Below, piece after piece: positions 28,960 through 37,435 of a stretch of DNA of 38,120 nt (position 1 is the first letter of the stretch; the number at the start of each line of letters is the position of its first letter). The notes beneath the pieces are model-generated. The model was not told where the DNA came from and made no database searches. It saw nothing but the letters and a program-made list of their open reading frames with translations. Location of the stretch: contig JAIDTI010000079.1 in NCBI GenBank assembly GCA_029060755.1, positions 1 through 38,120 on the forward strand. The letters run 5' to 3'. The stretch is from Ruminococcus sp. GTDB lineage: Bacteria; Bacillota; Clostridia; Oscillospirales; Ruminococcaceae. The position numbers were made by a program, and so were the translations under genes.

Positions 28960-30207
28960 TTATACAACGCATACACGGTTTTTACCTTGTTTTTTGGCTT
29001 TATATAAGCCGTCGTCAACTCTTATGCACAATGAATCTGCTGTATCATCTGCCCTTAACTGCGTTACACCCAGACTTATAGTCTGCGGTCTTATATCAGG
29101 AAATGTTGTATTTGCAAAGCATTGGCGGATAAGTTCGGCTATGTATGTTGCGGTTGAAATCTCTGTATCGTGGAGCAGGAGCATGAACTCCTCACCGCCC
29201 CATCGTCCAGCTGAAAATTTTCCGCTTGTTGTCTGATTATTTTTCAGAATGTCAGCAAGTCCGATAATAACAATATCGCCCTGTTTGTGACCATAGAAAT
29301 CATTTACTTGCTTGAAATTGTCAATGTCAAGCATTATTACAGAACAAGTACTTCCTTTTTTTCTTGATTCGCAGATAGTTTTTTCTATTTGAGATTGAAT
29401 TTCCTTGCGGTTATAAAGTCCTGTAAGTCCGTCAATTATAGCAGCCGATTTCAGCTTGCGTTTCATAACTTCATGTTCGGTTACGTTGTTAAGCAGTCCT
29501 ATAATGCCGTTGATATTGCCTTTTTCATCAGTTACAGGCTCTTTGTAAACCTGAAAGTATTCCAGTATACCGTCAGCATTTATTTCGATTATATATGAAT
29601 CGCCCTTGCCAGTACGGATAACTTCCATATCCTTTTCCATAGCCATTTTTGCATTTTCTGTATCTTTGCGTATATCAACATCAGTTTTGCCACGGATAGT
29701 CCAGTCAGGGTCGTCGGAATGGTCAAGATGATGCCAGTAATGAGTTGCAAAAATATATCTTCCTTCAGCATCTTTAAGATATATATTTGAGGGCAGTGCC
29801 TTTAACATACGCTCAATTTCATAGAATGATGCTGAATCCCTGATTTTTATTGCATTTTCAATACGGTTTTTTATTACAGTTTTCTGAAACGGTTCAGCAA
29901 TAAAGTCAACTACACCATAAGACAGACAAGACAACTGTTTTTCATCTTGTGGGAAGTTTGAAATCATCAGCAGAGGCAGAAAAGCAAATCTGCCATCATG
30001 TTGTGATTTTATCAGAAATTCAGAATTATTTCTTACTGCTTCGGGATAATCAATTACAGCAGCATTTATATTTTTAAAAATGTTTTCATAATTTTCAATA
30101 AGTTCATCTGTTGAATTTACACGGATAACATTGTAGTCTTCCAGTAAAATCGGATAAAGACTGTCAACAGACCAGCTGTTTCCAATTAATATTATATTTT
30201 TTTTCAT
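28960..30207 (-). CDS. diguanylate cyclase with receiver-like, PAS and GGDEF domains
   Basis: A 415-residue soluble protein. Residues 1-120 resemble a response-regulator receiver domain, with D53 at the phosphorylation position but Glu instead of the usual Lys in AEPF. A PAS domain spans about 125-245 (PSNIYLKDAEGRYIFATH … IIGLLNNVTEHE). The GGDEF domain is 250-415, with GGEEF at 337-341, an active variant, so it should make cyclic di-GMP from GTP. The inhibitory RxxD site is absent, so product feedback is unlikely. Its ATG overlaps the stop codon of metG by one base (TAATG), so it is co-translated with a tRNA synthetase. Confidence 0.9.
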   Translation of the reverse strand: MKKNIILIGNSWSVDSLYPILLEDYNVIRVNSTDELIENYENIFKNINAAVIDYPEAVRNNSEFLIKSQHDGRFAFLPLLMISNFPQDEKQLSCLSYGVVDFIAEPFQKTVIKNRIENAIKIRDSASFYEIERMLKALPSNIYLKDAEGRYIFATHYWHHLDHSDDPDWTIRGKTDVDIRKDTENAKMAMEKDMEVIRTGKGDSYIIEINADGILEYFQVYKEPVTDEKGNINGIIGLLNNVTEHEVMKRKLKSAAIIDGLTGLYNRKEIQSQIEKTICESRKKGSTCSVIMLDIDNFKQVNDFYGHKQGDIVIIGLADILKNNQTTSGKFSAGRWGGEEFMLLLHDTEISTATYIAELIRQCFANTTFPDIRPQTISLGVTQLRADDTADSLCIRVDDGLYKAKKQGKNRVCVV

Positions 30208-32201
30208 TATTGCTTTTCAAACTGCGATTCATGACGTGTAAAGAAGTCTTCACGTGGAGGGAGAAATTTAAGTTTATGATTTTTTTCCGTGAAATATGTA
30301 AGCGGTTCAAAAATTGTGTCCCATGACCATATTTTTTCGTCAACCTGCAAATATTCACGAAGTTTCTCTGTGCCGAATGGTGCAAGAGGGTGAAGGAGTA
30401 TAGCAGTTGTACGGATAATATGGAATAAGTTTGCAAGAGTCTGCTTTTTGTCGGCGGATTCATCATTGAGAGCCTTTGACATATACTTACTTCCGTTTCT
30501 GATGTAGCTGTCAAGAACATATGTGCATTGGTGGAAAGAGAATTTTGCCATATATCGTTCAAATTCCAGTACAGCTTTTTTAGCGTCCTCCAAAAATTTT
30601 TCTTCAGGGGGATTTTCGGGAAGTATGCCGTCAAATTCGTTCTGTGTTGTATAAAATGCAGTACGAATCATACGGTTATATACATTTGAGAGAAGCAGAC
30701 CATCTTTTACAACGGGGTCTGTATCTTCGGATTTTGCATCAGGATTGAACGGTTTAGGCATGAAACTTACAGAACGCTGACCTAAACCAAGTCCGAGCCA
30801 GTGCATACGGAGCTGTTCGGGTGTGTAGTAGTCAAGCAGTTCATCAGCCATTGGTGGTTTTACCTTGCCTGAACTTGATGCTTTTTTATCAAGGAAAAGA
30901 ATGTGATGATTTGCGACAATAATCGGCATCTGTAATTCGCCGTCAGGTGGATTTGCTGTTTTTTCATCTGCTTTCTGCTGTGCAATCCACATAGCAGGTT
31001 CAGCAATTCCATAGAAATATATGTTGTCCTGTCCGATAAACTGATATACTGTTGATTTTTTACTGCACCAGTAGTCTTTCCATTCCTCACGGTTTCTGCC
31101 ACAATTTTCAAGATAAGTTTCTGTAAATGAAATAGGAGCCCATAAGGATTCAGGCCATACCCATGCAGTTAAACCCTCTGCACCGTCCATTACGGGAGCA
31201 GGTACACCCCATTCAATATTTCCTGTAAGTCTGAACGGAACAAGTGTTTTTCCTGTTCGGTAGCGGATTCCGTTTTCTGTGAGAATACGGCAAGCATCAT
31301 CACAATCAGAAAGCTGTGAAAATTCTATAGTAAATGATGGCTTTTTCTTTTCCTCAATATAATTATGTTCGGGCATTGAATCTTTGAGAGAAAAATATTT
31401 CTCCTCAAATTCACGCTTTATATAAATTACAGGCGGTTTAAGAAATTCGTCAATCGTTTTCCATACAACAGGGCGAATGTCCTTGCGTTTTTTGAGTTCC
31501 TCAATCCAGTCTTTCATAAGCTGTTCATAGTCACGCAACTTGAAATACCAGTTTGTAACAGGTTTCATAGTCGGAGTTTTTCCAGTGAGTGTGCTTATGG
31601 GATTAAGAAGATTTTGAGGCATATACTGATGACCTAAATCACATTCATCTGCATAGCCTTTTTCAGAGTTACAGCCCTCAACAGGACATTTTCCGATAAC
31701 CTGACGACCATTCAGGAAACAGCCTGCATCTTCATCATAGAACTGCATTGTTGTAATCTTGTCAAGCTGACCTTTTTTGTAGAGTGAACTGATAAACCAG
31801 TCTGTTACTTCTGCGTGGATTTCTTTCGAACGTCCAAGACCTGATGCAGCAAAAAGATTTGGAGAAATGCCGTATTTTTTGAGAGTTTCTTCTTGTTTGT
31901 CGTGATTATTCTGTACAAAATTTTCCAGAGAGCCATTAAACTCACCTTTTTCGACTTTAACTCTCCAGCCCTCCGCAATCGGAGAGCCGTAACAGTCTGT
32001 ACCAGTCACAAAAATAACATTGTCCTTGCCGATTCTGTCACGCAGAAAACGTGCATAAGTATCAGCAAAAACCATCATACCGCCGACATGACCGAAGTGG
32101 AGTTCTTTGTTTCCGTAGGGCATACCAGCAGTTACAACGGCACGTTCAGGAAATTCAGGACGTGGGATTTCAAAATTTTTCTTATCTTTTTTTTCAGACA
32201 T
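30207..32201 (-). CDS. metG: divergent methionyl-tRNA synthetase
   Basis: A 664-residue class I synthetase of the MetRS type. The HIGH motif is H35-F-G-H38 in ELHFGHVGG, a knuckle with CPVEGC and CDLGH stands near 180-200, and WVWPESLWAPISF and YQFIGQDNIYFYG are typical of MetRS. Several key places are unusual: TGTDCYGSP instead of TGTDEHG-like sequence, a last zinc ligand position reading GH rather than CG, and K440-A-S-S-S-G-K in place of KMSKS. There is also an insertion of about 50 residues before NIEWGVPAP. An AAAGGAA site precedes the start. It could be a second MetRS paralogue. It lies 17 nt after the TerD-like gene. Confidence 0.83.
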   Translation of the reverse strand: MSEKKDKKNFEIPRPEFPERAVVTAGMPYGNKELHFGHVGGMMVFADTYARFLRDRIGKDNVIFVTGTDCYGSPIAEGWRVKVEKGEFNGSLENFVQNNHDKQEETLKKYGISPNLFAASGLGRSKEIHAEVTDWFISSLYKKGQLDKITTMQFYDEDAGCFLNGRQVIGKCPVEGCNSEKGYADECDLGHQYMPQNLLNPISTLTGKTPTMKPVTNWYFKLRDYEQLMKDWIEELKKRKDIRPVVWKTIDEFLKPPVIYIKREFEEKYFSLKDSMPEHNYIEEKKKPSFTIEFSQLSDCDDACRILTENGIRYRTGKTLVPFRLTGNIEWGVPAPVMDGAEGLTAWVWPESLWAPISFTETYLENCGRNREEWKDYWCSKKSTVYQFIGQDNIYFYGIAEPAMWIAQQKADEKTANPPDGELQMPIIVANHHILFLDKKASSSGKVKPPMADELLDYYTPEQLRMHWLGLGLGQRSVSFMPKPFNPDAKSEDTDPVVKDGLLLSNVYNRMIRTAFYTTQNEFDGILPENPPEEKFLEDAKKAVLEFERYMAKFSFHQCTYVLDSYIRNGSKYMSKALNDESADKKQTLANLFHIIRTTAILLHPLAPFGTEKLREYLQVDEKIWSWDTIFEPLTYFTEKNHKLKFLPPREDFFTRHESQFEKQ

Positions 32202-32218: not shown

Positions 32219-34420
32219 TTAATTCATAAAGAAATTGTTGTCAATAATACTAAGTTCATTTTTCTTTGACGGTTTTTCCATTACAAGTACTATTTCAGCA
32301 TCTTCACGTTTTTCAACTACTTCAATTTCCTTTGCATCAATGAGCAAGTTAAGATAGTCGCCAAGAGAAAACATGGGTATATCGTGATTTACAGTGCCAT
32401 AATAATTGTATGGTGTTTCTTCTCTGCCGTCAAATATAAGAACTCTGTTTTCGACATCTATATAGCCATAATTTATAGTTCTGTAATTACCAGTGAGATA
32501 GTGTGTAAAGAAACAGTTTTCACTTGAATAGAGTTTTACATCTTGTCCGAGCTTGTCAACAGCCATTATACCGACAAAAACTTCTTCCAGTTCTTTGAAA
32601 GTAGGAACACCGTAATATATATTGATATTAGCGGAGATTGTTTTGATATTTCTGTTTAATTCAAAGTCAACATATTCTGCGGCATCACTATGTGTCATGT
32701 CACCGCTGAATATAATTGAGGCATTTTTTGTGCGGAAATCACTGTTCCAGCCTATGTTGATTCTGTTTCCGCTTAAATCCATTGCAGATGCGTGTAAATC
32801 AAGGTCAACACGTGTAGGGTGATTCCAGTATACAAAGAAACGCATTCTGTCTATATTATCAGGCAGTTTTATTGCAAGTCCGCTTCTGATATATCCGCCC
32901 TCATCTGATTTGTTGTTGCAGTTGACAACTGACATACGTTCATCATAGTTATGGAAGTCAATATAAACTTTCTTGCCCTCCATACCTGTTGTGACATATT
33001 TCAGTCTTTCAGCAAGAACAGCTTCGCAAATATCAAAAAGAATATTCGTTCTGTCAAGCAGTTCTGTTATTTCAGCTTTCTTTGCTTCAAATTCAGCACG
33101 GTTTTTTCTATTGAGTTCATTTGTGGACTCAATTTCCGATTTTATCTGATTTCTGTATATGTTAAATTCTTCTGCTGTATAGTCGTCCTCATATTCAAAT
33201 GTATCATCAAATCTGACAGTCTTTTCAGAGTATTCTGCATCATAGTCAAAATTCTTGTATTTGTTTAACAATTCTCCAAATGTATTAAGATTTGTTACAA
33301 GTGTCTGTATGCTGAGACTTTCAGCGTTGGCAATAAGTGTGTTTTCAAGTTTTTCTTCGGAACAGCCTCTTTTAAGCAGATGATTCATTCGTCTTAGGAG
33401 TTCACCTGGTCTTTTTGCGAAATAGTCAATAGCTTTGTCTGCATCTTGCTCAATAAGTGCAGTACCTGTTCCGACCCATGAATGAAGTCTGCCGTTTCTG
33501 AGGTCGTCTACAGCTGACTTATGTTCTGCACTTCTTGAAAGATTGTCATAGCTGATAAACGGAAGCAGGACTTTTATTCTTTCAGCTTTTTTATTTGAAA
33601 TGATAAGATTTTCCCTGAAATCTCTTGCTGAGAATGATTCAAGAAGTTTCACAAGCACTTTCTTTTCAGATGTGCGGAGATGATAATGTTTTCTTGTGAT
33701 TGTATAGTCAATACATTTCCACGCATCACCTGAGTGCTGACAGATTGCACGGAGAGCAGATATTTTTTTTGTACTTTCATTTTCGCTGTCAAAAATGCAG
33801 TAAAAAATTGCAAGAAGATTCTGCTTGAATGGTACAGTAAGACCTGCAAGCTGTTCTGTTGAACACTCTCCGACAGCTGATTTTACAATAAGAAGTTCTT
33901 TATCTGTGAGACGTTCTCTTTTGTTTGTAACTTTTGAAATTGCTGTTATATATTTTTCTGATTCAGATACAAGACCAATTGTTTTTGCTTCAAGAAGTCG
34001 TGTATCTTTTTCAGTTTTCTGAGGTGCATCAGGATAAGGAGTCCAGCCTTTTTCTACAGGTGTACCCATTATAAGTTCCATTCCGTATGTAGACATATAG
34101 TGCAGTATCTGGTGAAAACGAAATTGAGCTTCTGTAAGTTCCATTACCTGAGTCGGAAAATTCGGATACATCGGCAGAGCTTTAACTTCTCCGACAAGAC
34201 TTTTTACATGATTGAAAAATCCGTCAAGACTTTTGCTTTTGCTGAGAAGTATAATATCTTTCGGAGAGAGTGAATAGCCGATATTAATGAGTTCTTCGTT
34301 GACTGTCATAGCCTTTACAAGTGAATTTTCGTCGATTTCTGAATCACTCTGTTTAAAGCTTACAAGTCTGAGTTCTGAAAAAAGAAGTTCGTCAAAGCTT
34401 GTTCCTACTTTATTTTCCAT
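32219..34420 (-). CDS. large protein with C-terminal TerD-like domain
   Basis: A 733-residue soluble protein. Residues 1 to about 390 are helical and unrecognised in detail (blocks FRFHQILHYMSTYGMEL and RPGELLRRMNHLLKRG). An acidic Asp/Glu/Tyr stretch near 395-420 leads into a coiled-coil-like segment (about 415-455). Residues about 500-690 resemble TerD: RVDLDLHASAMDLSGN, then SIIFSGDMT and AEYVDFEL, in which the DLD acidic residues suggest calcium binding as in TerD. TerD proteins belong to stress and phage-defence associated ter systems, mostly of unclear mechanism. GGAGGTGC sets the ATG at 34420; the longer frame up to 34495 would enter the RNA array. It is the first gene after the pseudoknot array and heads the operon with metG. 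Confidence 0.75.
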   Translation of the reverse strand: MENKVGTSFDELLFSELRLVSFKQSDSEIDENSLVKAMTVNEELINIGYSLSPKDIILLSKSKSLDGFFNHVKSLVGEVKALPMYPNFPTQVMELTEAQFRFHQILHYMSTYGMELIMGTPVEKGWTPYPDAPQKTEKDTRLLEAKTIGLVSESEKYITAISKVTNKRERLTDKELLIVKSAVGECSTEQLAGLTVPFKQNLLAIFYCIFDSENESTKKISALRAICQHSGDAWKCIDYTITRKHYHLRTSEKKVLVKLLESFSARDFRENLIISNKKAERIKVLLPFISYDNLSRSAEHKSAVDDLRNGRLHSWVGTGTALIEQDADKAIDYFAKRPGELLRRMNHLLKRGCSEEKLENTLIANAESLSIQTLVTNLNTFGELLNKYKNFDYDAEYSEKTVRFDDTFEYEDDYTAEEFNIYRNQIKSEIESTNELNRKNRAEFEAKKAEITELLDRTNILFDICEAVLAERLKYVTTGMEGKKVYIDFHNYDERMSVVNCNNKSDEGGYIRSGLAIKLPDNIDRMRFFVYWNHPTRVDLDLHASAMDLSGNRINIGWNSDFRTKNASIIFSGDMTHSDAAEYVDFELNRNIKTISANINIYYGVPTFKELEEVFVGIMAVDKLGQDVKLYSSENCFFTHYLTGNYRTINYGYIDVENRVLIFDGREETPYNYYGTVNHDIPMFSLGDYLNLLIDAKEIEVVEKREDAEIVLVMEKPSKKNELSIIDNNFFMN

Positions 34421-34461
34421 AAGTATGCACCTCCGCATGATAATTAAGATAAAAAAACAGG

Positions 34462-34565
34462 GGCAAGCTATCTGATAACATACAATCCAGTTCAACTATG
34501 CTTTTTTCATAAATGACAATTCTAAAAGGAAGTTATCTGATAAGTTGAAACGGGGTACGCTTGCC
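34462..34565 (-). repeat. pseudoknot element, copy A (last, terminator-proximal)
   Basis: 104 nt. P1 GGCAAGC/GCTTGCC; Y GATAAC/GTTATC; X is TTCAAC/GTTGAA plus partial extension. The constant block reads CTTCCTTTT, one change from the other copies. P1 is extended by CAG/CTG and followed directly by TTTTTTT on the minus strand. Confidence 0.75.
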
Positions 34566-34590
34566 ACTGTTATAGTTTTTTTGAATTTAC

Positions 34591-34683
34591 GGCAAGCCGA
34601 TTGATAATAGGCAGTCTGTACAGTATTATTTGCGTGACAGGCAATAAAAGTAAGCTATCATAAAATGTACAGACACGCTTGCC
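34591..34683 (-). repeat. pseudoknot element, copy B
   Basis: 93 nt, the most compact copy. P1 GGCAAGC/GCTTGCC; X GTCTGTACA/TGTACAGAC, nine perfect pairs; Y TGATAG/TTATCA with one G-U pair, the weakest Y of the set. Confidence 0.75.
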
Positions 34684-34697
34684 GAATTTTTAATTAA

Positions 34698-34792
34698 GAC
34701 AAGCAGTTTCATAACATACAGCCTATACAAAAATGATATAGTTTCATCTTATGTAAAAGTAAGTTATAATGATTTGTATAAGCACGCTTGCC
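34698..34792 (-). repeat. pseudoknot element, copy C
   Basis: 95 nt. P1 GGCAAGC/GCTTGTC with one G-U; X GCTTATACAAA/TTTGTATAGGC, eleven pairs with one U-G; Y TTATAAC/GTTATGA with one U-G. All three wobble pairs exist only in minus-strand RNA. Confidence 0.78.
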
Positions 34793-34813
34793 TTGAGATG
34801 TTGCTTTATACAG

Positions 34814-34936
34814 CAGACTGATTGATAACATACAGCCCATGCAACGAAACACATAATCGGCGGTCTGTAAAGACCACTCCGATTCCCTATTTGTATCATA
34901 AAAGTAAGTTATCATCAAATTGCACGGGTACGCCTG
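34814..34936 (-). repeat. pseudoknot element, copy D (first, promoter-proximal)
   Basis: 123 nt. P1 is CAGGC/GTCTG, a different sequence from the other copies that still pairs (one G-U); X CCCGTGCAA/TTGCATGGG with one G-U; Y TGATAAC/GTTATCA perfect. The variable loop holds an extra hairpin (AATCGG … GGTCT/AGACC … CCGATT) absent from the other copies. Confidence 0.78.
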
Positions 34937-34958
34937 ATATATTATATGCAACATTGTT

Positions 34959-34987
34959 ATTATATCATATTTTCTGTACAATGTCAA
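34959..34987 (-). promoter_or_regulatory. sigma-A promoter of the pseudoknot array and TerD-metG-GGDEF operon
   Basis: On the minus strand TTGACA (34987-34982) and TATAAT (34964-34959) have a 17-nt spacer and an A-rich upstream stretch. The first pseudoknot element begins about 16 nt after the expected start site. Confidence 0.87.
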
Positions 34988-35031
34988 TAGTTTTTCTGAA
35001 AAAATATTCGTGATTTGTATTTTTTATTTTG

Positions 35032-37358: not shown

Positions 37359-37435
37359 CGAGGTGTGGCTCAGTTTGGTAGAGCGCTACGTTCGGGACGT
37401 AGAAGCCGCAGGTTCGAATCCTGTCACCTCGACCA
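37359..37435 (+). tRNA. tRNA-Pro, anticodon CGG
   Basis: A full cloverleaf with CCA encoded. Acceptor stem CGAGGTG/CACCTCG, D arm GGCTCAG…GAGC, anticodon stem CTACG/CGTAG around the loop TTCGGGA with anticodon CGG at 37393-37395, and T arm with GGTTCGAATCC. It reads the rare proline codon CCG. It is a single-gene unit with its own promoter and terminator. Confidence 0.95.

Follow-up and report, generated by a model that had tools for sequence, protein, structure and literature searches.

A tandem pseudoknot RNA that occurs with a predicted Ro60-like ring and TerD-fold protein in Ruminococcus and relatives

Introduction

The described systems closest to the locus reported here are the Ro60/Rsr (TROVE) proteins with their Y RNAs and the TerD proteins of Ter stress systems. 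In Deinococcus, access of Rsr (the Ro orthologue) to RNA substrates is controlled by the Y RNA, which also tethers Rsr to PNPase (PMC4726728, PMC8058203). TerD is described as a component of Ter stress systems with a possible role in signal sensing (PMC7824862). We analysed a 38,120-nucleotide stretch of a Ruminococcus sp. genome (GCA_029060755.1, contig JAIDTI010000079.1, positions 1 to 38,120; hereafter the window), in which four RNA units lie in tandem on the minus strand at 34462-34937, in the transcript order D, C, B, A, ahead of a gene for a 733-aa protein. This partner protein is predicted to combine a Ro60/TROVE-like helical ring (residues ~150-475) with a TerD-fold domain (~519-679). 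Because the RNA recurs beside relatives of the gene in several gut-bacterial families, the RNA and the protein likely form a new RNA-protein particle. The initial annotation of the window had described the array as a selected RNA structure; it proposed no function and was silent on the protein partner, on a second array in the same genome and on the promoter and terminator that many relatives have at their arrays.

Results

The array RNA is a covarying pseudoknot

Each unit is organised as a stem P1, GT, the 5′ strand of stem X, the 5′ strand of stem Y (GATAAC or near), the motif CTT(A/C)CTTTTA, a variable region, X 3′, Y 3′ (GTTATC or near) and P1′. X and Y interleave, which gives a pseudoknot closed by P1. 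The conserved CCTCCTTTTA strand that follows the Y 5′ side in some copies resembles the anti-Shine-Dalgarno region at the 3′ end of 16S rRNA.

Three covariance models of the unit were used. R1 was made from the six copies of this genome, in a MAFFT alignment that left X out of register in several copies; R2, built from 17 units of five genomes of the genus, took its place. R3 had wider training, on units from loci found through the protein, while R2 is independent of the protein except for its five genus genomes. Across 98 distinct units, 93.1% of pair cells held standard pairs, compared with 70.2% after shuffling and 28-41% when the partners were slid, and two-sided changes occurred at 21 of the 23 pairs. 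P1, the stem formed by the 5′ and 3′ ends, was paired in 98.6% of cells with two-sided changes at 5/6 pairs. Y was paired in 98.3%, also with two-sided changes at 5/6; for example, GATAAC/GTTATC has become GGCAGC/GCTGCC in locus L071. Y is an independent test of the structure, since the pairs modelled in R2 are confined to P1 and X.

We compared covariation with a tree-based null (substitutions simulated on a FastTree tree, 60 alignments, in an R-scape-like script of our own). At E < 0.05, 17 of the 23 structure pairs covaried (P1 3/6, X 10/11, Y 4/6), against one of the 3,982 remaining column pairs. Three of the six structure pairs above this threshold are almost invariant, and the other three had E values of 0.083, 0.15 and 0.7. 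Compensation is also seen between orthologues: in genome G136 the X stem of unit D is GCCAGTGCAA/TTGCATTGGC, compared with ACCCGTGCAA/TTGCATGGGC in this genome. Thus, the covariance-model search recovered homologous units in other genomes and covariation in the alignment was significant in P1, in X and in the unfitted Y, bearing out the initial annotation on both the interleaved X/Y pseudoknot inside P1 and the selection for RNA structure.

Unit length across relatives is 84-227 nt (median 104). The 227-nt unit (L041:5685-5911) owes its size to a variable region filled with short G+C-rich repeats, judged by eye. Inspection by eye of compact units upstream of the gene in L099, L100, L101, L106, L117 and L143 indicated that X is seemingly lost; these keep P1, Y and the CTTTTA strand, and P1 mostly runs straight into a U-tract.

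The RNA and the partner gene occur together

R1 gave six matches in total in this genome, at two loci. The second array, of two units, is on contig C16 (L010:5217-5491, minus strand), flanked by genes that were named by eye as those of a malK/ugpC-like ABC ATPase and an M20-type peptidase; by eye, it has no clear promoter of its own. Pattern matches on contigs C8 and C17 were dropped, as by eye the flanking stems were missing. Within the genus, R1 detected the RNA in 5 of 125 genomes, in all five ahead of the partner gene and in three to five units, and the protein is found in the same five. The second locus is occupied in four of them by one or two units (G136, G125 and G062 included) and was not found in G146.

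Across 396 genomes of the family, R2 found the RNA in 11 (6 of 126 genera), the protein was present in 15, and both were present in 10 (p 1.4e-15). One genome had the RNA without the protein (G535, a weak match), and five had the protein without an R2 match. R3 was run on 19 whole protein-bearing genomes and on 236 genomes of the class. Among the 19, it was positive for the RNA in 18; in the remaining one, G255, a unit adjoins the gene, and the resulting 19/19 is a figure for protein-bearing genomes alone. Neither the RNA (R3, E ≤ 0.001) nor the protein was found in the 236 class genomes, except in this genome. In conclusion, the RNA-protein pair has a rare and patchy distribution, in which the RNA and the protein go together.

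The same link was seen from the side of the protein, in 79 loci from named genomes that hold the best of 245 protein-alignment matches and were selected by protein only. Their titles include Ruminococcus, Oscillospiraceae, Lachnospiraceae, Solobacterium, Erysipelotrichaceae, Mogibacterium, Christensenellaceae and Sarcina sp. DSM 11001. With R3 (E ≤ 0.013), 63 of the 79 loci yielded 128 units in all, every one on the gene strand and none within the gene; all are within 1 kb of the gene, which on that strand is 8% of the strand space searched. R2 at E ≤ 0.05 matched 59 of the 79, or 55 of 75 after removal of L073, L074, L075 and L108, which hold units used to build it. For 13 of the 16 loci without an R3 unit at E ≤ 0.013, a diverged or compact upstream unit was recognised by eye. 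A scripted test for P1, Y and the motif was positive at 11 of these 13 (L106 and L118 failed), compared with 68 of 1300 shuffled regions, and also at one of nine motif occurrences elsewhere in the same loci. No unit was found beside the gene in L081, L109 and L148; for L081 and L148, taken as genomes G426 and G467, the RNA is on other contigs.

The partner is a predicted ring and TerD-fold protein

The two-domain architecture of the partner comes from an AlphaFold2 model (pLDDT 90.6), with folds assigned by VIA-align; the likeness of its TerD-fold domain is to structures 3ibz, 2qng, 2qz7 and 2kxt. The proposed relation to Ro is one of predicted fold. Pfam gave no family for the protein at E ≤ 10, TROVE (PF05731) included, and there was no TROVE match anywhere in this genome. 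Alignment with TROVE proteins by hhalign returned probabilities of 0.3% and 3%, that is, no profile homology, a PDB sequence search revealed no homology, and Foldseek searches with both protein models had no match at E ≤ 0.001. In place of a C-terminal vWA domain, the model has the TerD domain. NCBIfam NF041916 matched partially, over residues 516-661 (E 4.5e-21, 74.8 bits against a cut-off of 600).

PADLOC gave no match at the locus. Ten neighbour proteins from the loci of seven relatives had no family common across loci except sigma-factor regions at two, and Ter families were absent from the Pfam matches of the neighbours tested (three here and ten at relatives' loci). Since these neighbours provide no third partner, the module looks two-part.

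Longer partner proteins (850-945 aa) are encoded at L131, L133, L135-L138, L140, L141, L144 and L147. The units of nine of these ten loci (L136 excepted) have CTTCTA or CTTCTG in place of CTTTTA, hinting at co-variation of RNA and protein. CTTCTA is also present at L097, a 657-aa match.

Layout of the array in the window

The array and the partner gene comprise the following features, all on the minus strand:

34982..34987, minus: −35 hexamer TTGACA of the array promoter, read directly from the sequence, with a 17-nt spacer to the −10 hexamer
34959..34964, minus: −10 hexamer TATAAT, read from the sequence, 21 nt ahead of unit D
34812..34937, minus: RNA unit D, 126 nt (R2/R3 81.7/63.9 bits), with P1, X and Y pairs
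34698..34791, minus: RNA unit C, 94 nt (R2/R3 81.7/69.8 bits)
34591..34682, minus: RNA unit B, 92 nt (R2/R3 79.1/70.0 bits)
34462..34564, minus: RNA unit A, 103 nt (R2/R3 80.3/71.1 bits), the final unit ahead of the gene
34559..34571, minus: 5′ strand of the extended P1 of unit A (AACAGTGGCAAGC), pairing with 34456-34468 at 12/13 positions
34451..34468, minus: 3′ strand of that P1, continuing into a 7-U tract and terminator-like, read from the sequence
34430..34434, minus: Shine-Dalgarno GGAGG of the partner gene, read from the sequence
32219..34420, minus: partner gene, 733 aa, downstream of unit A

All four tandem copies of the initial annotation are present where it had placed them, on the minus strand from 34937 to 34462. 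The models define lengths of 92-126 nt in place of the 93-123 nt it gave, and several of its details hold with amendments. X pairs as described in every copy, with a bulge and mismatches in copy A, and the common block CTTACTTTT is shared except that copy A reads CTTCCTTTT. The GATAAC/GTTATC pair is kept, but copy B has 5/6 pairs, one of them G-U, the sixth being a C/A mismatch. P1 of copy D, described as changed on both sides, has one two-sided change (A-U to G-C); the other is a G-U wobble, and the stem is not wholly changed. The P1 extension of unit A is preserved with different bases in G125 and G146, and two U of its 7-U tract are paired within the P1 stem.

The annotation's view that the RNA belongs to no recognised family was upheld. 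At Rfam gathering thresholds the array RNA was unmatched in the window and in 13 relative loci, and a search of the array at relaxed E-values yielded nothing beyond four sub-threshold matches, to unrelated families. ARAGORN, which is not built for degenerate mimics, found no tRNA-like gene in 34400-35000. Among the literature matches listed, the RNA and the RNA-protein link are undescribed, which is no proof of novelty; word searches within PMC11109978 and PMC8632094 did not find the RNA. The RNA is uncatalogued, with no Rfam family and no PADLOC model.

Elsewhere in the window, the region beyond the 3′ end of the partner gene (28960-32201, minus strand) holds a methionyl-tRNA synthetase gene (Pfam) and a gene that is GGDEF-like by eye, and a similar synthetase gene lies 3′ of the partner gene in G136, G146 and G062 (by eye). 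The Rfam search of the window returned nothing but a tRNA gene (RF00005) at 37359-37432 on the plus strand. One relative's locus has an FMN riboswitch upstream (L106:3524-3660, plus strand), unrelated to the unit.

Many arrays have their own promoter and terminator

The units are upstream of the gene in 32 of the 63 loci, 27 of which have a single unit, and downstream in the other 31, where 28 have two to five. A strong promoter (at least 10 of 12, in the 60 nt before the first unit) was detected in 29 of 62 loci compared with 0.8% of control positions; L073, too near a contig end, was omitted from this test. These promoters precede 22 of 31 downstream arrays but only 7 of 31 upstream loci. 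In 21 of the 22 promoter-bearing downstream arrays the −10 box ends 7-10 nt before P1, and therefore the transcript would start at P1. A strong intrinsic terminator comes after 24 of the 31 downstream arrays, compared with 59 of 620 control positions (25 of 31 and 161 of 620 at a looser threshold), and the next gene was convergent in five of six downstream loci examined. Where the units are upstream, the last one is followed by a run of at least four T in 22 of 32 cases, compared with 9 of 65 for inner units. Arrays also lie on contigs that do not carry the gene, in this genome and in G527, G394, G518, G504, G467 and G426. In G467 no array was found beside the gene. That of G426 may adjoin its gene, because both contigs end nearby.

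These data bear on whether the units are a cis-acting leader (an attenuator, an autoregulatory protein-binding site or a riboswitch) in which the last P1 and its U-tract act as a conditional terminator. The upstream position of the units here and in half of the loci, the scarcity of strong promoters of their own at upstream loci and the U-tracts on the last upstream units are consistent with a leader. However, the remaining arrays come after the stop codon, mostly with a promoter and a terminator, so that the 5′-leader position expected of a riboswitch or cis-regulatory class is seen at 32 loci and not at 31. Together with the convergent next genes and the arrays on other contigs, these promoters and terminators argue against a purely cis-acting leader, which we regard as unlikely. 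The array encodes a largely free-standing noncoding RNA tied to one protein, and autoregulation may exist in addition to a role in a ribonucleoprotein.

Discussion

We consider it probable that the array RNA and the predicted ring-TerD protein form a ribonucleoprotein with a mode of action like that of Ro60 and its Y RNAs, while being a member of neither family. Each unit would dock on the ring, and the array would supply several RNA copies per protein. Where units are upstream, the U-tract after the last one suggests that this unit could end its own transcript, with only some polymerases reaching the gene; its P1 and U-tract would in this way stop most transcripts ahead of the gene. The particle might select structured or damaged RNAs, and TerD, a putative ligand sensor in Ter stress systems, would stand in place of the Ro60 vWA domain. 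Such a combination of ring, dedicated RNA and TerD sensor is suggestive of a particle for RNA surveillance that answers a small signal. A more specific version has about an even chance of being correct: an independently derived or deeply diverged Ro60-fold ring, with a TerD sensor for vWA and a pseudoknotted, tandem-made Y-RNA analogue, serving stress RNA surveillance in gut Clostridia and Erysipelotrichia.

Another reading is a type III toxin-antitoxin-like pair, with the tandem pseudoknot RNA restraining a toxic protein. The array and gene here resemble a ToxIN-type locus, in which a promoter is followed by tandem structured RNA repeats, then a terminator and a gene. This proposal is improbable, because neither PADLOC nor Pfam gave a match, to ToxN/CptN/TenpN-type nucleases or otherwise, a 733-aa protein with a predicted ring and TerD fold is unlike the small ToxN-type nucleases, about half of the loci have the array downstream of the gene, and the units (median 104 nt) exceed the about 35-50 nt of antitoxin repeats. 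We give a similarly low probability to a noncoding RNA with its own function (e.g. a regulator or a ribozyme) that is co-inherited with the gene and not bound by its product. The arrays on other contigs suit that idea, and binding of the RNA by the protein is our inference, yet without a shared function it would be difficult to account for RNA and gene occurring together in several families and for arrays that adjoin the gene on one side or the other. A repetitive palindromic (REP/MITE-like) DNA repeat, suggested by tandem, multicopy units with inverted-repeat ends, is very improbable given only six matches at two loci in this genome, units on the gene strand beside one gene family, covariation within a pseudoknot, and promoters and terminators at the arrays.

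The RNA, a strongly covarying pseudoknot, has a clear candidate protein partner, and among its carriers Sarcina sp. DSM 11001 (L141) is listed as a named strain and not as a metagenome bin. Should the ring bind this RNA, Ro-type RNA rings would no longer be confined to the TROVE family. Such binding would also connect the TerD stress domain, which is poorly understood, with RNA biology, and the pair would offer a tractable system for the function of such rings.

Most of the TROVE and Y RNA features tested are absent from the RNA-protein pair. Compared with Ro60/Rsr, the partner protein has no sequence-level TROVE homology and has a predicted TerD domain where Ro60 has vWA. The unit is like a Y RNA in that its 5′ and 3′ ends pair into a stem (P1), and differs in being a pseudoknot without an Rfam match. 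Residues 516-661 of the partner match the MXAN_6230/SCO0854 family RING domain protein (NF041916), but the best stretch is the TerD-like part only and is far under the cut-off; literature searches for SCO0854 and MXAN_6230 found no paper, and we know of no RNA associated with that family. Type III toxin-antitoxin RNAs (ToxI, CptI and TenpI) share tandem pseudoknot units before a terminator and a gene, and this RNA departs from them in unit size, the closing P1, the partner protein, and the downstream or other-contig arrays. Finally, the partner is predicted to share the TerD fold with the TerD proteins of Ter stress systems, but here that fold is fused to a predicted Ro-like ring and paired with an RNA.
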